A stretch of DNA of 37,271 bases, taken from positions 1 through 37,271 of the IMG/VR virus record IMGVR_UViG_3300035199_001187; one strand, 5' to 3'. Positions 2,948 to 36,219 of this stretch are shown piece by piece. Both the position numbers and the translations under genes were made by a program. The DNA is from a virus. The notes under the pieces were generated by a model that was not told where the DNA came from, searched no databases, and saw only the letters and a list, made by a program, of their open reading frames with translations. Each line of letters starts with the position of its first letter. Positions within the stretch are counted from its first letter, which is position 1.

Positions 2948-3146
2948 GCTGATCTCCCAGCCATTCCCGCCGCCGGCCCCACTGCCGGCGCATCTCCTCG
3001 ACTAGACGTTCGACTGCTGCGGCTCCGCGCTTCTTGGCGAGGGATTCCTCGAGCTCGGCCACCTTCTCCGGCGTGGTGGTACCACGCCGGAGCCAGTACC
3101 GGGCCTCACATTCCAGCATGTGCTGGCCTTCGGTCTGGTCAGGCAA
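2940..3146 (-). CDS. Small phage protein, possibly DUF7696-like, TTG start
   Basis: A 68-residue, charged, mostly helical protein with the motif ECEARYWLRRG followed by TTPEKVAEL and a basic C-terminus (RRQWGRRREWL). Short proteins with ECEARYW are common in Pseudomonas phage early regions near methyltransferase genes. I recall the family as DUF7696, without certainty. The start is TTG at 3146, preceded by GGAGG seven bases upstream and overlapping the methyltransferase stop. An internal ATG at 3119 is the alternative, preceded by GAAGG. Function unknown. Confidence 0.65.
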   Translation of the reverse strand: MPDQTEGQHMLECEARYWLRRGTTTPEKVAELEESLAKKRGAAAVERLVEEMRRQWGRRREWLGDQHG

Positions 3147-4875
3147 TGGCCACCTCCCGCCGTGCCAGGCTCATGGCCATCGCCAGCGGCCGCACCCATA
3201 CCGGCATGCTGTTGAGGATGAAGGTTTCGCCCTGCTCGGCCAGCAGCAGAGTGGTACCCATCACGTCGGCGATGGCCTTGCCTGCCTTGCGGGGCACAGC
3301 GTTGCCGATCCGCTCGCGCCAGGCCCCGTCGTTGTTCCCGTGGAGGGTGAACAGGTTCCCGACCTGGAGCAGCTGTCCGGTGTCCTGGCAGGGCTGCCAG
3401 ATGTCTTCCGGATCAAACATGGATTGCAGGGCGGCCAGTTCCAGGGTGGTGAATGGCCGGTTCCAGGTGTTGAAGGGGCTGCGAATTACGCAGGTCATGC
3501 GGTCATTCGGAGCCGGCATGCGCACGTCGGCGACGGACCATCGGCCATTGTCATGGCGGGCGCTGGCCGAGACTGCGCCGGCGGGATCATTCCAACCCAC
3601 TACACCGTAGTGGCCGCCGGTGAGGTAGGCGTCGCCCTTCTTCCGATCGAGCACACGCGGATCAGCGACTGACTGCCAGCCACCTTGCACGCCCTTTCCG
3701 CCAGCGATGATGGTGCCGGCGGCCTTATCGTAGGGCACCACGCGGTAGTTTCCGGAATGGCGGTTCCAGTCGGGGCGAGGGTCGGCCACGCTGAACTTGC
3801 CTTGCCCGGGCGACTGCTGACCGGTAATGGTCCCCATCGCCTCGGTCCATTCCACCAGGCCGAACTGCTGGCCATGGTTCCAGCTGGCGGACTGCTGGTA
3901 GCGCGGGTCGGCCACCGAGTAGGCGCCGTTGGTGGGGCCGCTGCGGCCGGCGATAGTGCCGGTGCTGTCCTGCCAACCATGCACGCCCAGGTAGCCGGCC
4001 TGGTACTCCGGCACCACCAGATAGTCGCGAAGGACGCCATTCTCCACCACAAAGCGGTTGAGCGATCGCCAATCCTTCCCGGGCTCGACCAGGGCAAGGC
4101 GAAGCCACGTTTTCCAGAACAGCGCCGGCACCCGGTGCATGGGGCCGGCGAGTTGGATGTCGCCCGCCAGGGGCATGCGGCCGAGGATCTCGCCGACGCC
4201 GCGCAGGCGGTGTGTTTGTGGCTGATACAGGAAGGCCGGGACTTTCTCGATGTGGCGGGCGACCAGTAGGAAGCGCTTGCGGCTCTGCGCCAGGTTGGCG
4301 ATTTCACCGCAGTCATGCACGGTTTCCGCGACGGCGTAGCCGTAGTGGGCGAACAGCTTGACGATTTGATCCAGTAGGTGCCGCCCGCGGCTGGCCAGGC
4401 GCGGCACGTTCTCGAAAACGATCAGGCTGACGGGGTTGTGCTGCCAGGCCTCAAGCATCATCCAGACGCAGCGCAAGGTCAGCTCATTGAGGGCTTGGTA
4501 TTTCGGGGTGAGGCTCATGGACTCCGGCAACAGCCCGCTGGCCCCTTTGCAGGGGCTGGAGATGAAGACTGCGTCCGGATCTTCGTAGCCGGCAGCGCGG
4601 CGGATGTCGTCGACCGTGGCCTCTCGCCAGCCGGGTGGAGGCTCGACGCCGTTGAAGGCGATGTACTGCTCGCGGGTGAACAGGTCGAGCAAGGTCCCCT
4701 TGGTACCGGTGAAATTCTCGAAGTCGGCGAGGCCGGCGGGGTCGATGTCGACCCCGCCGATGCACCGCCAGTCGGCCTGCACGTTGCCTACCACGGGGTG
4801 GCTGTCGTTGAATCCTGCTGCCCCGGAGCCCAGGCCACAGCAGAAGCCGAAGTGCTTGAGCACACGCTTAAACAT
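3139..4875 (-). CDS. C5 cytosine DNA methyltransferase with internal repeats
   Basis: A 578-residue protein of the Dcm/PF00145 family that would methylate cytosine C5 in phage and host DNA, probably to protect the phage from restriction. Seen motifs: I, FCCGLGSGAAGF (residues 11-22); IV, SSPC with catalytic C109; VI, FENVP (154-158); VIII, QSRKR (197-201); X, RIGNAVP (522-528). Between VIII and X, where the target-recognition domain belongs, lie four degenerate units of about 30 residues (295-325, 338-367, 377-407, 423-452), each a W/Y segment, GT-I/V-like, then SVADPR or SVADVR. This makes it longer than the usual 330-430. The ATG at 4875 has GGAGGT six bases upstream and overlaps the previous stop, so it is preferred to the ATG at 4896. 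No restriction partner is present. Confidence 0.92.
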   Translation of the reverse strand: MFKRVLKHFGFCCGLGSGAAGFNDSHPVVGNVQADWRCIGGVDIDPAGLADFENFTGTKGTLLDLFTREQYIAFNGVEPPPGWREATVDDIRRAAGYEDPDAVFISSPCKGASGLLPESMSLTPKYQALNELTLRCVWMMLEAWQHNPVSLIVFENVPRLASRGRHLLDQIVKLFAHYGYAVAETVHDCGEIANLAQSRKRFLLVARHIEKVPAFLYQPQTHRLRGVGEILGRMPLAGDIQLAGPMHRVPALFWKTWLRLALVEPGKDWRSLNRFVVENGVLRDYLVVPEYQAGYLGVHGWQDSTGTIAGRSGPTNGAYSVADPRYQQSASWNHGQQFGLVEWTEAMGTITGQQSPGQGKFSVADPRPDWNRHSGNYRVVPYDKAAGTIIAGGKGVQGGWQSVADPRVLDRKKGDAYLTGGHYGVVGWNDPAGAVSASARHDNGRWSVADVRMPAPNDRMTCVIRSPFNTWNRPFTTLELAALQSMFDPEDIWQPCQDTGQLLQVGNLFTLHGNNDGAWRERIGNAVPRKAGKAIADVMGTTLLLAEQGETFILNSMPVWVRPLAMAMSLARREVAIA

Positions 4876-5155
4876 CCGCCACCTCCACCATCGCATACAG
4901 GGTGACGTCCTCGAGGTCGCGGTCCTGGTGCAGGTTCAGCCGCTTGAGGCCGTCCAGGTTGTCTGGGTGGCAGTCGGTGAGCAGCACGGCCGGCATGCGG
5001 GCGGACTCGCTGCGGATCGCCTTCAGCTTGGCCAGCAGGGTGGTGAAGCTGTAGAGCCCGGCCTCCAGCTCGACGGCGCGACGGCCCTGGAGCATCAGGC
5101 TCTGGCGCAGCTGGCGGGGCGACTTGGTCGCCGTGCTGACGAATTCAACGCGCAT
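4868..5155 (-). CDS. Hypothetical 95-residue phage protein
   Basis: Starts [20 protein letters not shown] and is mixed alpha/beta, with hydrophobic strands (MPAVLLTDCH, DVTLYAMVEV) and a leucine-rich helix. The part around LLTDCHPDNLDGLKRL resembles no family I can name. The ATG at 5155 overlaps the previous gene. The longer frame upstream is in-frame read-through with no phage character. It ends inside the first codons of the methyltransferase (ATGTTTAA), so the two are translationally coupled. Function unknown. Confidence 0.75.
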   Translation of the reverse strand: MRVEFVSTATKSPRQLRQSLMLQGRRAVELEAGLYSFTTLLAKLKAIRSESARMPAVLLTDCHPDNLDGLKRLNLHQDRDLEDVTLYAMVEVADV

Positions 5156-5342
5156 GGCGGCGCCCTCCCTGGGCCTTCTTGGCCTTGATGTTGTCCATGT
5201 AGGTCGCCCACTCGGCGGTTTTGCGTTGCTGGCGGATCTGGCTGCAGCGGGCGTGCTTGCGGGTGGAACGGGCGTTGCCGCAGATGTCGCAGATGCTGGG
5301 CAGGTCCAGGCGGTGGCTGGCCATGGTCGGGCGCTCACGCAT
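5145..5342 (-). CDS. Small Cys-rich protein, possible zinc finger
   Basis: A 65-residue basic protein with CDICG at 18-22, His30 and Cys33 (KHARC), a spacing that could hold one zinc ion, followed by a Lys/Arg-rich helix. Such small treble-clef-like proteins are frequent in phage early operons and may bind DNA or RNA. I recognise no named family. The ATG at 5342 overlaps the upstream stop (ATGCGTGA) and has GGAGG seven bases before it, which decides it over the inner Met7. Confidence 0.75.
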
Positions 5343-5757
5343 GGGGCACCTCCAGCATCAGGACGGCGCGGGCGCCGTCACGGTTCATGCTGCTGACAAT
5401 GCGGTCCCGCTCCATGGCCTCGATCATGCGGGCGGCGCGGTTGTAGCCGATGTTGAAACGGCGCTGCAGGAAGGAAGCACTGACACGTTGATTACTGACC
5501 ACGGCGAGGACGGCTTCGCGGTAGAGCGGGTCTGCCGTATCAGGTTCCATCGGGTGAGCCGCGACATAGCGGGATGTGCGCTCGAGCACCTCCAGGGCGG
5601 TGGCGTGGTTGTTGTGATTCTCGATCGCCCGTGCGGCCTTGCTGATCAGTAGCTCGCAGGCCTTGCGCAGGTCGTCCGGCGTCTCGGTACCGGCCGCGCT
5701 GCAATAGGTGATGATGAGGTACTCGGCGATCTGGCCGACTTCTGCTGGCGTCTTCAT
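5335..5757 (-). CDS. Orphan FtsK-gamma domain protein
   Basis: A 140-residue protein whose C-terminal half (about 74-134) matches the winged-helix gamma domain of the chromosome translocase Fts[15 protein letters not shown], then [20 protein letters not shown] and a closing [10 protein letters not shown]. In FtsK this domain reads KOPS sequences and activates XerD at dif. Here there is no motor: no Walker motifs and no membrane part. The N-terminal 70 residues are helical and unknown. It could bind KOPS-like sites in host or phage DNA, act on XerCD, or serve as a local regulator. These are inferences; the domain assignment is firm. It overlaps both neighbours. Confidence 0.85.
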
Positions 5758-10855: not shown

Positions 10856-11206
10856 TTATCGGGCGCCGGCTTGGGCGAGGAAGGCGTCGGAGAGAATCCG
10901 GCGCGGGATCAGGGCGCGCTGGCCGCTGCCGGTGTCCACCAGGATCACCAGGTGTTCATCAGCGCCGGCGGCGAGGTCCAGACCGACCCACTCGGCGCCG
11001 CTGTGCAACTGGCTGAGGGCCAGATGCACCAAGCGGGATGCCATGAAGGTTGGCACGTCCAGCGCTTCCACCAGGTGGCGGGTGGTGCGCTCGGCCAGTT
11101 CCTCTTGATCCAGGTGCTGGCCCTGATGACGCTGCAGGAAGGACAGAGCAGCGGCCTGCATCGCCACGCGGTACTGCTGCGGGTTTTCCATAACGATCTG
11201 GCTCAT
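10856..11206 (-). CDS. Hypothetical early protein, 116 residues
   Basis: Starts MSQIVMENPQQYRVAMQAAA. A helical N-terminus (FLQRHQGQHLDQEELAERTT) is followed by a beta-rich C-terminal half (WVGLDLAAGADEHLVILVDT). Unknown function; common in position just after the Ogr gene in this type of prophage, as far as I recall. The ATG at 11206 overlaps the Ogr stop (ATGA) and follows GAGGAGG with eight bases spacing. Confidence 0.7.
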   Translation of the reverse strand: MSQIVMENPQQYRVAMQAAALSFLQRHQGQHLDQEELAERTTRHLVEALDVPTFMASRLVHLALSQLHSGAEWVGLDLAAGADEHLVILVDTGSGQRALIPRRILSDAFLAQAGAR

Positions 11207-11517
11207 GCAAAGGCCTCCTCGGGCTCGGGCAGGGTGTCCAACAGGTCGAGTTGATCGGTTCTCTCGCGGTTGTCCCGCAGGGCCCTCATGCGCGCTACAG
11301 CCGGGGCCACGGGCAGCACCACGCGGGGTTTGTCCAGGCCGGAGGGGCTCAGCTGGTAGTCCCAGCTCATGGAGCCGGAGAAGGTGGCGCCGCAGGGGAT
11401 GTTGAGGCACTGGGCGTACATGGAACGGAACAGTGGGGTCTGGCCCTCGCTGTTGCGGATACGCATCTTCCCGCCGCAGGCCGGGCAGACGAGCTTGTAG
11501 GTGGTGCCTCTGCTCAT
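11203..11517 (-). CDS. ogr: Ogr/Delta-type zinc-finger late gene activator
   Basis: A 104-residue protein of the Ogr/Delta family (PF04606), which in P2 and P4 binds upstream of the late promoters and recruits RNA polymerase. The zinc motif is plain: C11-x2-C14, then C37-x4-C42 (CPACG, CLNIPCG), with the family's typical MYAQC and GSMSWDYQLSPSG. It is longer than P2 Ogr (about 72 residues) through an acidic C-terminal tail. Its likely targets are the CCTGTAG-N9-CTACAGG dyads at the three late control regions. In P2 ogr follows D in the late region; here it is in the early operon, so early transcription would switch on late genes directly. It overlaps both neighbours. Confidence 0.9.
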   Translation of the reverse strand: MSRGTTYKLVCPACGGKMRIRNSEGQTPLFRSMYAQCLNIPCGATFSGSMSWDYQLSPSGLDKPRVVLPVAPAVARMRALRDNRERTDQLDLLDTLPEPEEAFA

Positions 11518-11984
11518 GCTTGGCGCTCCATGTGCAGGATGATCACGGCGCGGACTTCCTCGGCCAGCGCGGCCAGATGGTCGCGGTGGGCGGCCAGGAT
11601 CTGGTCTGCCTCCTTCCGGGTGATGCGGCCATCGGCCAGGGCCTTGGCGATGATCTGGCCGACGCGGCCTTCCTTCACCTCGGTGGCCAGGGAGCGGGCA
11701 TAGAGGTCGACGTTGTCGAGTTCGCCGACGCTGGGCATGGGCACGAAAACGCCCTGGTACAGGCTGCAGACGTAATCGGCGAGGAAGGAGGTGCCGGCGT
11801 CCTGCTCGAGCTGGAGCACCTGCTCATCGCTCAGGGGGCGGTGGCCGGCGTTCTCGTAGAGGTGGTTGTCGAACTTCTTTAGCTCCAGACCGAGGCGGGC
11901 TGCGGCGCACTCACGACCGCCCGGATAGGCGGAAATGATGGCGCTGAGGACCTTGCGGCGGCTGTCAAGAATGGGGCGTTTCAT
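11514..11984 (-). CDS. YmfL/CII-like phage regulatory protein
   Basis: About 156 residues. The N-terminal part (RRKVLSAIISAYPGGRECAA, then RLGLELKKFDNHLYE) fits the helix-turn-helix region of the YmfL family of putative phage regulators related in position to CII. The rest is helical, with LSDEQVLQLEQDAGTSF and LADGRITRKEADQI. It probably controls early transcription or replication. The start is uncertain: ATG at 11984 has AAGGA about twelve bases upstream; ATG at 11996, four codons earlier, lacks a fitting site. The stop overlaps ogr. Confidence 0.75.
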   Translation of the reverse strand: MKRPILDSRRKVLSAIISAYPGGRECAAARLGLELKKFDNHLYENAGHRPLSDEQVLQLEQDAGTSFLADYVCSLYQGVFVPMPSVGELDNVDLYARSLATEVKEGRVGQIIAKALADGRITRKEADQILAAHRDHLAALAEEVRAVIILHMERQA

Positions 11985-12225
11985 CTTCTTGTTCATCCTT
12001 GACGATGGGGGAACTATCGTTGACCACGCCTTCCTTGATGCCAAGCAGGACAGCGGCGCGGTGGGCTTCACCGCGAAGGCATTTCTTCTGCCCATTGAGT
12101 ACCGCGTAGACGGTGCTGGGGTTCAGGTCGTGCTTCAGGGCGAAATCCCGAAGGGACATTCCCTGGTCTTCGAGGCGCTTACGGGCAGCCGCGCGGGCTT
12201 GCTCGTCGATGCTGGCGTTCGGCAT
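11965..12225 (-). CDS. BcepMu gp16-like HTH regulator (Cro position)
   Basis: An 86-residue protein with a helix-turn-helix (MSLRDFALKHDLNPSTVYAV) and the signature that follows it in BcepMu gp16-family proteins (LNGQKKCLRGEAHRAAVLLG). It is the first gene of the leftward early operon, divergent from the CI-type repressor, as Cro or Cox would be. It probably represses the repressor promoter and commits the phage to lytic growth; this is inferred from place. The acidic tail KDEQEDETPHS overlaps the YmfL-like gene by about 20 bases. Confidence 0.8.
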   Translation of the reverse strand: MPNASIDEQARAAARKRLEDQGMSLRDFALKHDLNPSTVYAVLNGQKKCLRGEAHRAAVLLGIKEGVVNDSSPIVKDEQEDETPHS

Positions 12226-12310
12226 AGTTCAACTTCGTGTAATTTCGTGTGATTTCGAGGTGATATTGGTTCATTAAATTGAACCTGTCAACGCCTGAGG
12301 TTCAATTTTG
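12226..12310. promoter_or_regulatory. Lysogeny control region with operator half-sites
   Basis: The AT-rich gap between the divergent gp16-like and CI-type genes. It holds the perfect palindrome GGTTCA-TTAAAT-TGAACC at 12268-12285. A further copy of the half-site GGTTCAATTTT lies at 12299, a weaker GTTCAACTT at 12227, and a repeated TTCGTGT(A/G)ATTTCG pattern at 12233-12258. The half-site at 12299 touches the repressor start codon, which fits autoregulation. I could not place the rightward promoter with confidence. Confidence 0.75.
12262..12291 (-). promoter_or_regulatory. Leftward early promoter with operator in spacer
   Basis: On the minus strand a consensus -35 TTGACA (12286-12291) is followed by an 18-base spacer that is exactly the operator palindrome, then AATATC (12262-12267) as a -10. 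Transcription would start about 30 bases before the ATG at 12225. Repressor bound to the palindrome would lie between -35 and -10 and block polymerase. The -10 is weak; the -35 and operator overlap are clear. Confidence 0.7.
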
Positions 12311-12661
12311 ATGACCATTGGTGAGCGGCTTAAGGAAGAAAGGTCGCGCTTGGGGCTCAGCCAGACTGACCTGGGAGCGATTGGTGGCGTAGGAAAGACC
12401 ACCCAGATCAATTACGAGAAAGGAGACCGCAGCCCCGATGCTGCCTATCTCGCCGCTGCCGCTGCTGCCGGCGTTGACATCCTCTATGTGGTGACCGGGC
12501 AGCGGGCATTGGTGCCTGCGGATAGCCTCACCGCTGAAGAGGCCAAGGTGCTGGAAAACTATCGCGGCATGGCGCCAGCCGATAAGGCCTCCGTGATGCG
12601 CCTGACAACCCTCTTGGCGCGGGCCGACGGTAATGGAGGCGATGTCGTGAACAACGGCTGA
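12311..12661 (+). CDS. CI/C-type HTH repressor without S24 domain
   Basis: A 116-residue XRE-family repressor that should maintain lysogeny by binding the palindrome in the control region. Helix-turn-helix at about 13-40 (LGLSQTDLGAIGGVGKTTQI) with the family's YEKGDRSPDAAYLAAAAAAG; then a C-terminal helical tail, LTAEEAKVLENYRGMAPADK, likely for dimerisation. There is no S24 protease domain, so it resembles P2 C more than lambda CI. SOS induction by self-cleavage is not expected. A TTG directly before the ATG could also start it. The only Shine-Dalgarno candidate is GAGG about eleven bases upstream. Confidence 0.88.
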   Translation: MTIGERLKEERSRLGLSQTDLGAIGGVGKTTQINYEKGDRSPDAAYLAAAAAAGVDILYVVTGQRALVPADSLTAEEAKVLENYRGMAPADKASVMRLTTLLARADGNGGDVVNNG

Positions 12662-13121: not shown

Positions 13122-13961
13122 ATGATGAGAAGTTTTAGCAAAAAACAAATGATCCTCTTCGCTTTGTCGGAGTGGTTTTATATCGGTGGGACTGCGGTTT
13201 CTGCTTTTTTGGGCTGGATCAACAGCGTTGAGGGTGATGAGAAATGGCTTGCAAAGCGCCCTGTGCTTTGGAATGTCATTCAATACCTACAAGAGAGCTC
13301 TTTCTATGTGTATTTGATAGTTGGGGGTTTGGTTGTCTTAAGTTTTATTTATAGGAAACTTGGTGATCCTTGGGTGCTGGAGAAATTAAAATTCATCCTT
13401 GATGAATATCAGTATCAGGTATTCCATGCAAATGGAGCGCCCCAGGACCACGATCGTGTAACAATATTCCAGCACAAAAAGAACTGTTTATTTGTGCGTC
13501 ATTGGAGTGCGAAGTGGTGGTTTATGCCGTGGGGGAATAAGTCAATCTTTTCTGATTACCTTATTCCTGTGCTAAGGTCAGGGCATATCTCGCAAAAAAC
13601 GCGTGCTATCTTCTATGCTCCTGACGAAAGTGATCGTGCAGAAGGTGTGGCTGCCAGAGCTTGGGCTAGCAACCGGGCGATCGTGCTGAACGATCTTCCC
13701 GTGATGCGGTCCCAAGCGCCACAGCGAGACATAAAAAGTTACGCCGAATCGACATTTTGCGACGTTGGCATGATCAATAAGTATATAAGTGAAGGTAGGC
13801 AGATGCCGCGTTCCATTGCAGCAATTCCTATCGAGAGTGGCGGTGTAGTGTGGGGGGTGGTGGTGCTTGATAGCCGGTCCCCGCAGGGTGTTACAGATGA
13901 GTCTGTTCAACACTATCAGTTGACGGTTGCCCTTATTGGGCAGCTGCTGGAGAGAACCTAA
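13122..13961 (+). CDS. Two-span membrane protein with cytoplasmic GAF domain
   Basis: A 279-residue protein. Two membrane segments (about 10-33 and 59-80) place a short loop outside. A linker follows, then a GAF-like sensor domain in the last 120 residues: EGVAARAWASNRAIVLNDLP and RSIAAIPIESGGVVWGVVVL are typical GAF strand-helix signatures. GAF domains bind cyclic nucleotides or other small ligands, or dimerise. No output domain (kinase, cyclase, nuclease) is present, so the membrane part may be the effector or the protein may act through its partner. The gene is visibly richer in A+T than the phage genes around it, a sign of recent gain. The ribosome binding site is weak. The stop overlaps the next ATG (TAATG). 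Confidence 0.8.
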   Translation: MMRSFSKKQMILFALSEWFYIGGTAVSAFLGWINSVEGDEKWLAKRPVLWNVIQYLQESSFYVYLIVGGLVVLSFIYRKLGDPWVLEKLKFILDEYQYQVFHANGAPQDHDRVTIFQHKKNCLFVRHWSAKWWFMPWGNKSIFSDYLIPVLRSGHISQKTRAIFYAPDESDRAEGVAARAWASNRAIVLNDLPVMRSQAPQRDIKSYAESTFCDVGMINKYISEGRQMPRSIAAIPIESGGVVWGVVVLDSRSPQGVTDESVQHYQLTVALIGQLLERT

Positions 13962-20453: not shown

Positions 20454-21644
20454 TTAACCGTTGACGCGGGCGGCGAAGTCGATCAGGTAGCGATCGGTGA
20501 TGCGCTGCTGGAAGGTCAGGTCCTCGAGCGGCGGCACGGGGGTGTAGTCGTAGTCCAGGAACAACTTGCCGGCCTTGAGGGTGTCTTTGTCGTTGAAGGC
20601 CGGGTCGTACCAGCACTCGCCGCCGATCAGGTAGCCGCGGCGGGTCAGGTCGCGGAACTTGGCGTTGATGCTCTCGACGATGTCGCGCACCAGGCTGGCG
20701 TGCATCGGCTTGTCGACTGCCCAGAAGTGCCCCTCGGCCATGGTGTCGGCCAGCACCTGGGCGGTGCGGGTGTAGTTCTCGAAGGCGAATAGCGGGTCGT
20801 CGGAGCAGGTGCGGGAGCCCCAGAAGCGGAAGCCCTCGCGACGAATCAGGGTGGTGACCTCGGCCGCGTTGAGCAGGCCGGCATCGGTGGCGGGGTTCTG
20901 CAGGTCCCAGAACACGTCTTTGGACAGGCCCGACACGCCATTGACTGGCACGTTGGAGAGGGTCTTGTGCCAGCCGATCTGCTCGTCCAGTTTGGCGCGC
21001 AGACCCAGGGCGCGAGCAATGGCCGCCGCCGGGGCGTCGGCGTTGAGCGTGGTGTCCCAGTTGATGAAGTCCGGCCAGATGAGCATGAGCTCGCGGGCGC
21101 CGAAGTTCTCGCGGTAGGCGATGGCGTCGCTCACGGTTTCGCAGTCCCAGGCGCTGGCGTAGGCGAAGCCGCGCAGCTTCTGGGCGATGGTGACCAGTTC
21201 GGTGGAGACAGCCAGGGAGTCCAGGCCGGGCACGCCCAGGATGCGCGGACGCACGCCAAGCTGGGCCTCGGCTGCGAGCAGGGCCTTCATGCCGGTGTAC
21301 TGGCCGCCGGCGGTGACGCTGCCGATGATCTTGGTGGCCTGGTCGGCGGCCTTGGCGGCATCGTCCACGCCCTCGCCGTCGGCCACGCGGACCACGACGG
21401 TCACGGGACTGGCCTGGTCGGCGATGGCGTCCAGGCTTTTGGCCAAGGTGCCCAGCTCACCGGCCTTGCCGGAAGCAGTGAGCACGTCGGTGAGCAGGAC
21501 GGGCTTATTCAAGGGGAAAACGGAGGCATCCGCGTCGCTGGCCGTGCAGACCATGCCGACTACAGCCGTCGAGACAGTGCGGATGGGGCGGGTGCCCTGG
21601 TTGATTTCGACGACTCGGACGCCGTGATGGTGATCGGTAGGCAT
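20454..21644 (-). CDS. FI: Tail sheath protein gpFI
   Basis: 396 residues, the same length as P2 FI. Contractile sheath family: start MPTDHHHGVRVVEINQGTRP, TAVVGMVCTASDAD, and the C-terminal LFLDYDYTPVPPLEDLTFQQ and DRYLIDFAARVNG. Starts at the ATG 21644 after GCAGGAGATCCC; the frame upstream runs into the promoter region. First gene of the late FI operon, with an Ogr-type dyad 91 bases upstream. Confidence 0.95.
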   Translation of the reverse strand: MPTDHHHGVRVVEINQGTRPIRTVSTAVVGMVCTASDADASVFPLNKPVLLTDVLTASGKAGELGTLAKSLDAIADQASPVTVVVRVADGEGVDDAAKAADQATKIIGSVTAGGQYTGMKALLAAEAQLGVRPRILGVPGLDSLAVSTELVTIAQKLRGFAYASAWDCETVSDAIAYRENFGARELMLIWPDFINWDTTLNADAPAAAIARALGLRAKLDEQIGWHKTLSNVPVNGVSGLSKDVFWDLQNPATDAGLLNAAEVTTLIRREGFRFWGSRTCSDDPLFAFENYTRTAQVLADTMAEGHFWAVDKPMHASLVRDIVESINAKFRDLTRRGYLIGGECWYDPAFNDKDTLKAGKLFLDYDYTPVPPLEDLTFQQRITDRYLIDFAARVNG

Positions 21645-21723
21645 GGGATCTCCTGCAGGGCTGGGTGCCAGATCAGTGAGCCTTGAGGGTGACGCGCGCG
21701 CGAGGTCGGCGGTAGCGGCGGGA

Positions 21724-21746
21724 AATGTAGAAAGGGCTGCTACAGG
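21724..21746 (-). promoter_or_regulatory. Probable Ogr site / late promoter P_F
   Basis: AATGTAG-N9-CTACAGG, one of three copies of a dyad whose full form is CCTGTAG-N9-CTACAGG. It lies in the gap before FI, where P2 has its P_F late promoter. In P2, Ogr binds TGT-N12-ACA centred near -55; here the spacing is N13. The left arm is changed in two outer bases. CGCGCGCG follows about 22 bases downstream, as in the V and P copies. Confidence 0.7.
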
Positions 21747-21754
21747 GTGGACAT

Positions 21755-21783
21755 GAAAAAGCCCCGGCGGGCGGGGCTGTTTC
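21755..21783 (-). terminator. Terminator after the fibre chaperone
   Basis: AGCCCCG/CGGGGCT stem with a five-base loop, followed on the minus strand by TTTTTC. It ends the V-W-J-I-H operon and separates it from the FI operon, whose promoter dyad lies just beyond it. Confidence 0.85.
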
Positions 21784-21820
21784 ATCGGGTCATACGGGAG
21801 GGGGCGGTACTGTCGGCGTA

Positions 21821-26133: not shown

Positions 26134-26474
26134 GCCGAAGCTCCGAAGCGCAGGGGCACCTGCAGGTTGAGCGGCTCATTGGTGTCGACGCGGCTGCCCT
26201 CGAGCTCGAGGGTGACGCTGCCAGGGCTGTCACCGCGGTAGAACTGCACGCGGGTGAGGCGCATGCGGGGTTCCCAGCGCATCAGGGCCATGGCGGTGGC
26301 GGCGTAGAGGCGCACCACGGTGTCGCCGTTGGTTGGCTGGTCGATCAGGTCAGGGACCTGGCTGCCGTACTCCCGGCGCATGACGCGCGAGCCGATGGGG
26401 GTGGTGAGGATGTCGGCGACGGACTGCCGGATGTGCTCGAGCAGGCCAATGCTGCGGCCGGTTTCTCGGTTCAT
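26130..26474 (-). CDS. W: Baseplate wedge protein gpW (gp25-like)
   Basis: 114 residues (P2 W 115) of the gp25/IraD-like lysozyme-fold family (PF04965): LLEHIRQSVADILTTPIGSR, MRREYGSQVPDLIDQPTN and AATAMALMRWEPRMRLTRV. The ATG at 26474 overlaps the V stop; a long upstream frame in this phase is antisense to nothing but is the shadow of V. Confidence 0.95.
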   Translation of the reverse strand: MNRETGRSIGLLEHIRQSVADILTTPIGSRVMRREYGSQVPDLIDQPTNGDTVVRLYAATAMALMRWEPRMRLTRVQFYRGDSPGSVTLELEGSRVDTNEPLNLQVPLRFGASA

Positions 26475-27004
26475 ACCGGCTCTCCCGTCTGACCACCGCC
26501 GGGCAAGATTCCAGGGTGGCGGTGGTGAATGAGGCTGATGCCGGCGGCCAGCACGTCCTGGGTCACGGTCACCTGTCCGGTGATGGCCACGTCGCCCTGA
26601 ATCTGCACGCCACCTGGCGCGACCAGGCTGGCGGTACCGCCGGCCGGCAGGATGACGCTGAGGCTGTGGCTGCCGTGGTCGTAGTCGATGACGGCGCCGT
26701 CCGGGTAGGTGCGGCGGCACAGGGTGTCGCTTTCGGACGGGGCCGGGTTGGCGTCGGAGTAGATGCCGACCAGGACGAAGCCGAGGGCCGGGTCGCCGCT
26801 GGGGCTGAAGACGGTGCATTGCTCGCCCGCGGTGGGCGGGTCCCAGTCCTTGGTGGTGCCCGCGCGGCTGACGAACCAGGGCAGCCAGCCGGTGAGCAGG
26901 CCGCCGGTTTTCACCCGGCAACGGGCGTGCTCCAGATCCACTTCGGCGATGGTGCCGGAGCGGATCAGGTTCTCGAGGCGGCGGATGAGGTCGGCGATAT
27001 TCAT
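26471..27004 (-). CDS. V: Baseplate spike protein gpV
   Basis: 177 residues (P2 V 211), phage baseplate assembly protein V family. An OB-fold N-terminus (DLEHARCRVKTGGLLTGWLP, WDPPTAGEQCTVFSPSGDP) is followed by a short beta-helix (VAPGGVQIQGDVAITGQVTV) and an apex with HHRHPGILPGGGQTGEP, where the HxH can hold iron. It pierces the outer membrane. First gene of its operon. No Shine-Dalgarno sequence is seen before the ATG at 27004; the 30 bases upstream are almost identical to those before gene P. Confidence 0.92.
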   Translation of the reverse strand: MNIADLIRRLENLIRSGTIAEVDLEHARCRVKTGGLLTGWLPWFVSRAGTTKDWDPPTAGEQCTVFSPSGDPALGFVLVGIYSDANPAPSESDTLCRRTYPDGAVIDYDHGSHSLSVILPAGGTASLVAPGGVQIQGDVAITGQVTVTQDVLAAGISLIHHRHPGILPGGGQTGEPV

Positions 27005-27049
27005 GGCGCCGATGCTGCAGGTCGCGCGCGCGGGGCGCACGGTGGCGGC

Positions 27050-27072
27050 CCTGTAGGAAGGGTTGCTACAGG
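27050..27072 (-). promoter_or_regulatory. Probable Ogr site / late promoter P_V
   Basis: A perfect dyad CCTGTAG-N9-CTACAGG centred 57 bases before the V start codon, in the short gap between S and V, where P2 has P_V. CGCGCGCG follows downstream at the same place as in the P copy. If the -55 rule of P2 holds, transcription would start only about two bases before the ATG. Confidence 0.75.
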
Positions 27073-33455: not shown

Positions 33456-34307
33456 TCAGAACTTGGTCAGCACTTTGCCGTCGCCGCCGGTGGCGGGCGG
33501 GCGCTGGTGTTGGCTGTGGTCTTCGGTTTCACCCAGACGCTTGACCAGGTCGGCGAACTCGCCGGCCAGTTTTTCGTGGGCGGTTTTCAGGGCAGCGAGC
33601 TTGGTTTGCTCGGCGGTGAAGGCGTCGCCCTGTTCCTTGGCGTGCGAGGCCAAGGCCTCAACTGCTTCGGTCAGCTCGGAGAATTGGGCGTCATCCTTGA
33701 CCGACTTGTCCTTGCTCTTGCCGAGGGCCTCCATCACCCGGTTGAACAGGCCCAGGGCCTTGTTCTCTGGCTCGGTGACTTCCTCGAATTCGATGACCGC
33801 CTCTTCTGCGGCCGTGAACAGGTTGTCCTTGTCCTGTTTGCGGCTGGTCAGGGTGCCGTGCTTGGCGCTGAACTGGAGCGCCTCGGTGCCCAGGCTGGCC
33901 GGGGTGTCGGTGACGGCCAGTCCAACCAGGTACGCCTTGCCGGTATCGGCGAAGCTGGGGTTGATCTCGACGGAGGTGTAGATCTTCTGCTTCTGCTTGT
34001 TCAGGGCCAGCAGGGCCGCGTTAGGCTCCAACTGGGCAAACAAGGCGAGCTTCTTCGCGCCGTTGATCTCGACCTCTTCGGCCTTGCACGCAAGCACGTC
34101 GCCATAGGCGCCGAACTCGCCGCCTGGCCAGGCCCATTGGATGTGCTCGCAGTTGATGCGCGCGCCGTAAGTGTTGGGGCTGTACTGGGCTGCCATTTGC
34201 TCGATCCAGGCGCGCTCGATGTTGCGGCCGTCGGTAGTGGCGCCTTCTACGGCGACACGGAACCATTTGGAGCGGAACTTCTTGGCGGGGGCGGTGCTTG
34301 CGGCCAT
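33456..34307 (-). CDS. O: Capsid scaffold and protease gpO
   Basis: 283 residues (P2 O 284), GPO family (PF05929). N-terminal serine protease: KWFRVAVEGATTDGRNIERA, YGARINCEHIQWAWPGGEFG (the conserved His is in INCEHI) and KQKIYTSVEINPSFADTGKA with the probable catalytic Ser. The C-terminal third is a helical scaffold. Starts at ATG 34307 after GAGGA; first gene of the O operon, 98 bases from the dyad. Confidence 0.94.
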   Translation of the reverse strand: MAASTAPAKKFRSKWFRVAVEGATTDGRNIERAWIEQMAAQYSPNTYGARINCEHIQWAWPGGEFGAYGDVLACKAEEVEINGAKKLALFAQLEPNAALLALNKQKQKIYTSVEINPSFADTGKAYLVGLAVTDTPASLGTEALQFSAKHGTLTSRKQDKDNLFTAAEEAVIEFEEVTEPENKALGLFNRVMEALGKSKDKSVKDDAQFSELTEAVEALASHAKEQGDAFTAEQTKLAALKTAHEKLAGEFADLVKRLGETEDHSQHQRPPATGGDGKVLTKF

Positions 34308-34393
34308 GCGGGCTGTCCTCGATGCGGTGGCGGCGATTGCCGTTGCGTTGAGGGCATGGTCGGCAGCTGGCGGTGCTGCGGCAACGCGCGTTG

Positions 34394-34416
34394 CCTGTAG
34401 GAAGGACTGCTACAGG
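34394..34416. promoter_or_regulatory. Probable Ogr site / divergent late promoters P_O and P_P
   Basis: A perfect dyad CCTGTAG-N9-CTACAGG in the 154-base gap between the divergent O and P genes. It is centred 57 bases before the P start, exactly as before V, and 98 bases before the O start. P2 has two late promoters here; only one dyad is seen, so it may serve both directions. No other gene lies in 34308-34461. Confidence 0.75.
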
Positions 34417-34461
34417 GCGCGGTGGTAGGGGCTCACGCGCGCGACCGGCAGCATCGGCGCC

Positions 34462-36219
34462 ATGAATGCCATAGTCGATTTGCCCACCGATCCTCGACGC
34501 CATGCCAAGCACCTGTATTGGCAGGGCTTCCGTGTCTGTGAGATCGCGGAGCTGACGGGGGAGAAGGAACGGACCCTGCACAGCTGGAAGGCGCGGGACG
34601 AATGGGACCGCGCCAGCCCGCTGGAGCGTATCCAGGCCGCCACCGAGGCCCGTCTTGTCCAGTTGATCCTGAAGGACCCGAAGAGCGGGGCGGACTACAA
34701 GGAAATCGACCTGCTCGGCCGGCAGCTGGAGCGGCAAGCGCGGATTCAGCGGTACCAGGACGGCGGCACCGAATCCGACCTCAACCCCGAGCTGGCGAAG
34801 CGCAACGCCGGGGAGAAGCGTAAGCCGAAGCGCAATGACATCACAGAGGATATGGTCGAGAAACTCACCGAGGCCTTCCTCGATGAGTGCTTCGACTACC
34901 AGAAGGACTGGTATCGCGCCGGCAACCAGCGCACCCGGGCGATTCTCAAGAGCCGGCAGATTGGCGCCACCTTCTACTTCGCCCGCGAGGCGCTGATTGA
35001 CGCCCTGACCACGGGGCGCAACCAGATCTTCCTGTCGGCCTCGAAGAACCAGGCACACATTTTCAAGGCCTATATCCAGGCCTTCGCCCGCGACGTGGCG
35101 GGTGTCGAACTCACGGGCGATCCGATCCTATTGCCCAACGGCGCCGAGCTGCACTTCCTGGGGACCAACGCCCGTACCGCCCAGGGCTACCACGGCAACT
35201 TCTACTTCGACGAATTCTTCTGGACCTACAAGTTCAAGGAGCTGAACAAGGTCGCCTCCGGCATGGCGATGCAGAAGCGCTATCGCCGGACCTACTTCTC
35301 GACGCCCAGCTCGATGGCCCATGAGGCCTACACCTTCTGGACCGGCGAGCGCTTCAACAAGGGCAAGCCCGCTGCCCAGCGCATCGAGATCGACGTCAGC
35401 CACGACGCCCTGCAGATGGGGCGGCTGTGCGACGACGGTATCTGGCGCCAGATTGTGACCATCCTAGATGCCGAGGGCCGGGGTTGCGACCTGTTCGACC
35501 TGGACGAGCTGCGCCGCGAGTACGACGCCGAGGCGTTCCAGAACCTGCTGATGTGCCAGTTCGTCGACGACGGGGCGAGCATCTTCCCGCTCAGCATGTT
35601 GCAGCCCTGCATGGTCGACAGCTGGGAGCTGTGGGGGGATGACTACAAGCCCTTCGCGCTGCGCCCGTTTGGCGATCGCCAGGTGTGGCTGGGTTATGAC
35701 CCGGCCGAGAGCGGCGACAGCGCCGGCCTGGTGGTGGTGGCACCGCCGCTGGTACCGGGCGGGCAATTCCGGGTGCTGGAGCGGTTTCAGTTCCGCGGCA
35801 TGGACTTCACCGTCCAGGCCGAGACCATCAGGAAGGTGACCCAGCGCTACTGGGTCACCTATATCGGCATCGACATCACCGGCATCGGCTCTGCCGTGGC
35901 CCAGCTGGTGAAGCAGTTTTTCCCCAACCTGACCACCTTCAGCTACTCGCCGGAGGTGAAAACGCGCCTGGTGATGAAGGCCTGGGACGTGATCCGCAAC
36001 GGGCGCCTGGAGTTCGATGCCGGCCACGTCGATATCGCCCAGTCGCTGATGGCCATCCGCAAGACCGTCACGCCCGGCGGACGGCAGTTCACCTACACCG
36101 CCGGCCGTACTGAATCGACCGGCCATGCCGACTTGGCCTGGGCCCTTTTCCACGCACTGCACAACGAGCCGCTGGAGGGCCAGACCGTGGCCAACACCGG
36201 CATCATGGAGATCTACTGA
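34462..36219 (+). CDS. P: Terminase ATPase subunit gpP
   Basis: 585 residues (P2 P 590). N-terminal helix-turn-helix (about 20-45: GFRVCEIAELTGEKERTLHS), a Walker A-like loop LKSRQIGAT (162-170), Walker B FYFDEF (247-252) and a C-terminal nuclease-fold region with acidic residues in GYDPAESGD, GIDITGIGSA and GHADLAWA. Packages DNA from cos with M. It begins ATGAATGCC after a leader almost the same as that of V, without a visible Shine-Dalgarno sequence. Stop overlaps the Q start. Confidence 0.95.
   Translation: MNAIVDLPTDPRRHAKHLYWQGFRVCEIAELTGEKERTLHSWKARDEWDRASPLERIQAATEARLVQLILKDPKSGADYKEIDLLGRQLERQARIQRYQDGGTESDLNPELAKRNAGEKRKPKRNDITEDMVEKLTEAFLDECFDYQKDWYRAGNQRTRAILKSRQIGATFYFAREALIDALTTGRNQIFLSASKNQAHIFKAYIQAFARDVAGVELTGDPILLPNGAELHFLGTNARTAQGYHGNFYFDEFFWTYKFKELNKVASGMAMQKRYRRTYFSTPSSMAHEAYTFWTGERFNKGKPAAQRIEIDVSHDALQMGRLCDDGIWRQIVTILDAEGRGCDLFDLDELRREYDAEAFQNLLMCQFVDDGASIFPLSMLQPCMVDSWELWGDDYKPFALRPFGDRQVWLGYDPAESGDSAGLVVVAPPLVPGGQFRVLERFQFRGMDFTVQAETIRKVTQRYWVTYIGIDITGIGSAVAQLVKQFFPNLTTFSYSPEVKTRLVMKAWDVIRNGRLEFDAGHVDIAQSLMAIRKTVTPGGRQFTYTAGRTESTGHADLAWALFHALHNEPLEGQTVANTGIMEIY

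Follow-up and report, generated by a model that had tools for sequence, protein, structure and literature searches.

In phage P2, the dependence of the late genes on the activator Ogr and the operator consensus TGT-N12-ACA are established, as cited in the text of PMC3931495, and the annotated P2 sites have the form TGT-N12-CCA for O/P and F, and TGT-N11-ACA for V. For the Ralstonia P2-like phages phiRSA1 and phiRSY1, the motif TGTTGT-N13-ACAACA has been published (PMC5694545).

The stretch of DNA analyzed here (the window; 37,271 nt, viral record IMGVR_UViG_3300035199_001187) belongs to a Pseudomonas-type P2-like phage. Its nearest named relatives are the Citexvirus phages of P. aeruginosa, and its closest genome-borne relatives are prophages in Pseudomonas and Stutzerimonas. 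We posit that each of three dyads in the window (Table 1) is very probably an operator for the phage's own Ogr at a weak sigma-70 late promoter.

Table 1. Late operators, late genes, predicted promoters, and the presumed activator gene in the window
Feature	Position	Strand	Remarks
Late operator, O/P gap	34394-34416		Core TGTA-N11-TACA 34396-34414, centre 34405; P rightward, O leftward
Late operator upstream of V	27050-27072		Core 27052-27070, centre 27061
Late operator upstream of FI	21724-21746		Core 21726-21744, centre 21735
P promoter (predicted)	-35-like TAGGGG 34426-34431; -10-like CAGCAT 34449-34454	+	Predicted start 34461/34462, at P ATG
O promoter (predicted)	-35-like TTGCCG 34379-34384; -10-like GACCAT 34356-34361	-	Predicted start about 34349
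V promoter (predicted)	-35-like GTGCGC 27035-27040; -10-like CAGCAT 27012-27017	-	Predicted start 27005/27004, at V ATG
FI promoter (predicted)	-35-like TACCGC 21709-21714; -10-like CACCCT 21686-21691	-	Predicted start about 21679
Terminase large subunit P	34462-36219	+	Pfam; ATG exactly 57 bp from dyad centre, invariant offset
gpO capsid scaffold (GPO)	33456-34307	-	Pfam; leader and Shine-Dalgarno sequence
Baseplate gpV, ORF as listed by finder	26471-27040	-	Pfam; GTG start at 27040
gpV, start re-set to ATG at 27004	26471-27004	-	57 bp from dyad centre
Tail sheath FI, ORF as listed by finder	20454-21785	-	Pfam
Tail sheath FI, start re-set to ATG at 21644	20454-21644	-	GGAG upstream
ogr homologue, presumed activator	11203-11517	-	Ogr_Delta PF04606, E 2.3e-12

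Elsewhere, the window encodes a 140-amino-acid early-region protein carrying an FtsK gamma domain, a DNA-orienting winged helix (5335-5757, minus strand; E 4.7e-24), a GAF-domain protein that is possibly the product of a moron gene and is encoded between tail gene D and an HTH repressor-like gene (13122-13961, plus strand), and a 585-amino-acid C-5 cytosine methylase-like protein (3139-4896, minus strand), of which the Citexvirus relatives have one at a similar place.

Dyads at the late genes

A sequence-only reading of this DNA had taken the dyad CCTGTAG-N9-CTACAGG as the mark of all the late promoters, and this description holds: the pattern is exact in the O/P gap and upstream of V, has two mismatches upstream of FI (where it reads AATGTAGAAAGGGCTGCTACAGG), and is flanked at each place by genes that Pfam identifies as P2 late genes. 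The exact core TGTA-N11-TACA occurs three times in the window versus 0.02 expected from dinucleotide shuffles, all three occurrences being these sites, and 0 of 100 shuffles reach that number. For the full dyad with three mismatches allowed, the count in the window is three versus 0.99 expected, which is not significant.

All three window sites are spaced as TGT-N13-ACA. They have the form of an Ogr operator, with outer TGT/ACA and an overall length of about 17-19 bp; the strict P2 consensus TGT-N12-ACA is found at none of the three, each having 13 bases between the triplets. Seven TGT-N12-ACA matches do occur in the window, a chance-level number, and they are located elsewhere than the dyads. 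The centres of the window sites have AAGG in common and are identical at 7/9 positions between each pair.

Conservation and extent of the motif

Relatives were gathered through gpO, the counts below include the window, and nonredundant sets are those from which promoters at least 85% alike had been removed. The sites recur at O/P, V, and FI: TGT-N13-ACA is present where expected in 96 of 100 O/P gaps (22-23 promoters when nonredundant), 75 of 82 V promoters (33 nonredundant), and 21/21 FI promoters (18 nonredundant), and one arm is degenerate in a few relatives (L047 at O/P; L050, L093, L100, L104, and L105 at V). The 13-base spacing had been read as a divergence special to this phage. The Pseudomonas relatives have the same spacing throughout, and it is not a new divergence because it has already been published for phiRSA1/phiRSY1 (PMC5694545).

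The proposal of a longer palindrome fared no better. Across 73 nonredundant sites, symmetric conservation is limited to TGTA/TACA and the centre is free; at the fifth pair, complementarity is seen in 32% of sites versus 41% expected from the columns, and the V sites have no conserved outer CC/GG. Because only TGTA/TACA is conserved among relatives, the 7-bp arms and the common centre are local features of the window phage. The AAGG centre was likewise considered as a conserved element and rejected, the centres of other phages being as alike (6-9/9); a pattern that includes the centre gives 29 matches, with only one in a clearly P2-like phage at a late-promoter site (L007, whose site is at FI and oppositely oriented). 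Two relatives have an identical 19-base match, TGTACTGTATGCGCATACA, at a distance of about 1.4 kb from ogr (G006:C1:7676-7694 and G011:C1:5757-5775), which fits TGTA-N11-TACA either by chance or as a different operator.

These data bear on whether the dyad acts as RNA, that is, as a hairpin in a terminator or leader structure. In the window, arms of up to 7 bp around a 9-nt loop would allow such a fold, but the lack of arm covariation beyond TGTA/TACA, the location of the dyad upstream of both predicted starts, and the presence of one copy between divergent genes make a hairpin extremely unlikely, and we reject it along with the longer palindrome.

We also reject the idea that the dyad is a host intergenic REP-like repeat that falls in phage gaps by chance, the outcome against which the sequence-only reading had asked to be checked. 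A short palindrome in the intergenic DNA of a GC-rich phage might well suggest such an origin, but the full CCTGTAG-N9-CTACAGG is found 0 times in 15 whole Pseudomonas/Stutzerimonas genomes, which refutes a repeat for the relatives' hosts and leaves it a negligible chance overall. In the same 15 genomes (about 84 Mb), a composite pattern of the dyad followed by N34, CAnCAT, N6, and CATGA gives 26 matches, whereas a reversed-pattern control gives 0. Most of the composite matches pair up on opposite strands at a distance of 6.5-8 kb, as P and V would in a prophage, again counter to a host repeat, and many are P and V promoters already read directly from the loci.

Promoter geometry and probable leaderless messages

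With the four window promoters aligned on the dyad centre, positions +21 to +26 of each form a -35-like hexamer and positions +44 to +49 a -10-like one, separated by a 17-bp spacer; these columns are also conserved among the relatives. These hexamers match sigma-70 poorly. From the position of the -10-like element, transcription starts are predicted at +56/57 from the dyad centre. In P2, the O and P starts are annotated 55.5 bp from the site centre, the V start 57 bp, and the F start 56.5-58.5 bp from it, and the predicted window geometry agrees with these annotated activator sites and starts. It had been remarked that a single O/P copy would have to serve both directions. The shared site stands, the O and P promoters being symmetric around one dyad; the oddity does not, as P2 and 186 are likewise annotated with one O/P site for two divergent promoters.

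The same geometry places two of the start codons at a nearly fixed distance. In 21/22 nonredundant promoters, exactly 57 bp separate the P ATG from the dyad centre, and the V ATG is at 57 bp in 25/33, with several others at 56, whereas the O and FI start codons vary from about 75 to 99 bp. In the window, P (-2.0 kcal/mol) and V (-1.7 kcal/mol) have weak Shine-Dalgarno pairing versus -5.9 for O and -7.4 for FI; the medians among relatives are -2.3 (P), -1.7 (V), -5.9 (O), and -2.6 kcal/mol (FI), the low FI value perhaps being caused by automatic start choice. Because the P and V start codons are 57 bp from the dyad centre, leaderless messages are implied: the P and V transcripts would begin at, or one base before, the ATG and would probably be read as leaderless mRNAs, and the O and FI transcripts would carry leaders about 35-42 nt long that include ribosome sites. 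In P2, the annotated transcription start of V is likewise at its ATG; P2 P, in contrast to the apparently leaderless P here, has a 23-nt leader. Leaderless terminase and baseplate-spike messages would tie their translation to the state of the ribosomes in late infection.

The starts that the gene finder lists for V (27040) and FI (21785) are upstream of the predicted transcription starts; better candidates are the ATGs at 27004 and 21644. In the annotation of Dobby and Sirocco, P begins seven codons before the conserved ATG, ahead of the predicted transcription start. With the 57-bp rule, late promoters can readily be located in Pseudomonas P2-like prophages.

Ogr and its probable operators

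The claim of an Ogr homologue at 11203 is borne out by the PF04606 match. The cysteines of the window protein, C11-X2-C14-X22-C37-X4-C42, fit the published CX2CX22CX4C of a C4 zinc finger, and its finger loop is R19-I-R-N-S-E24. An Ogr_Delta gene is present in all 14 of the fuller relatives tested. The AlphaFold model of the window Ogr (mean pLDDT 54.5) is too weak to interpret, and a sequence search gave no solved structure convincingly related to the Ogr family. The ogr gene shares 4 bases with the end of a CII-like gene (PF06892; the two spanning 11203-12095, minus strand) and is upstream of a Toprim-domain replication gene; given these neighbours, ogr sits in the early operon. Sirocco has the same gene order around ogr.

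In our model, Ogr made from the early region would bind TGTA-N11-TACA, whose centre is about 56 bp ahead of the transcription start, probably as two subunits on the two half-sites, and would help the host sigma-70 RNA polymerase to initiate at weak promoters whose -35 and -10 hexamers are poor. The O/P operator would drive two divergent promoters, whose -10 elements are equidistant on either side, and the V and FI operators would each drive one.

Could a different phage or host regulator use these sites? The CII-like gene (11514-12095) lies directly upstream of ogr and the HTH repressor-like gene (12308-12661) is nearby, and either product might be a candidate. However, the sites occur only at late promoters, with the spacing of the annotated P2 activator sites; the late genes of P2 and 186 are activated by Ogr and B (PMC3931495, PMC5694545); and the operator class changes with the Ogr loop. 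We consider another regulator very unlikely. Based on the recurring sites, the P2-like geometry, and the operator-loop covariation, Ogr is by far the likeliest reader, in line with the initial proposal that the dyad is its target.

The covariation is as follows. In the main class, to which the window belongs, the Ogr loop is MRIR[N/T/S]SE with few exceptions, and the operators are TGTA/TACA with a variable centre; the CGCCCCCCG centre is found in 0 of 157 main-class sites. Phages with the loop MRIRGSK (G051, G050) have TGTA-nCGCCCCCCGC-TACA operators, and one V site in this group reads CGTCCCCCG. Where the loop is MRI[K/R]DSK (G034, G044-G048), the operators are CGTA-nCGCCCCCCGC-nnCG, without exception among the O/P, V, and FI sites read (late promoters of one phage clade: L227, L228, L229, L231, L232, and L234), the FI sites sometimes having CGAA. 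The -10 region is little changed in the GSK and DSK groups. In one further relative (G036, L111/L235), with Ogr MKVRAST, the O/P and V sites are of the form TTGT...ACAA. More distant phages, namely KS14/FLC5, 186, and P2, combine AR[T/S]SR-like loops with GTTTGT...ACAAAC or GTTGT... sites.

As all three operators shift jointly alongside the Ogr loop in one clade, natural covariation supports Ogr as the reader. By this correlation, one trans-acting factor would read all three sites, Ogr being the best candidate and its residues 21-24 the suspected readers; the covariation comprises few independent events (one E-to-K change, one G-to-D type change, and the deep ARTSR/TTGT split), and other Ogr residues have also changed. 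We tentatively suggest, at somewhat less than an even chance, that Ogr and its three operators re-specify together, with the loop change from R-N-S-E to R-G-S-K to K/R-D-S-K moving recognition from TGTA/TACA to the CGCCCCCCG centre to CGTA...CG; a route through an intermediate phage with both signals is part of this joint reading and shares its tentative standing. If this is true, the Ogr-DNA code would become readable, and co-resident prophages would have late-gene activators orthogonal to one another. An activator and all of its sites that have shifted together constitute a natural experiment, one that points to particular residues and base pairs for testing.

Comparison with known systems

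P2 (PP, PO, PV, and PF; Ogr) and 186 (B) have their sites at the same genes and places as the window. In P2, the site centre is 55.5-58.5 bp from the annotated starts and the activator is a C4 zinc-finger protein, and the window, with its predicted starts and its C4 zinc-finger Ogr, is comparable. The half-sites differ, being TGTA/TACA with N11 between in the window versus GTTGT... in P2, as does the place of ogr, which is in the early operon in the window and beside D and attP in P2.

Phages phiRSA1 and phiRSY1 resemble the window in their inner TGT-N13-ACA, the same spacing, four late gene starts, and an Ogr homologue, and differ in having outer TGT/ACA repeats where the window has an inner A/T extension (PMC5694545); the G036 sites look like a TTGT-N13-ACAA version of their motif. 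Stenotrophomonas phage Smp131 is P2-like, with an Ogr homologue and published TGT-N12-ACA-like putative late promoters; unlike the window, it has rearranged V/J operons and N12-type sites (PMC3931495), and an exact TGTA-N11-TACA occurs nowhere in the Smp131 record.

Closest among named phages by gene content are the Citexvirus phages Dobby, Sirocco, and D14A, with terminase 82-85% identical to that of the window and Ogr 75% identical over residues 5-63. They share the window's dyads at O/P, V, and FI, with different centres and an FI site that is sometimes TGTA...CACA, and their records carry no late-promoter annotation. A search of the open-access literature gave no description of the TGTA-N11-TACA class, the 57-bp rule, or the operator shifts in Pseudomonas phages. 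The window operators are very probably Ogr-type late operators, a type of switch already known; what is new here is the probable leaderless state of the P and V messages, the joint shifts of Ogr and its operators, and one geometry for all four promoters.
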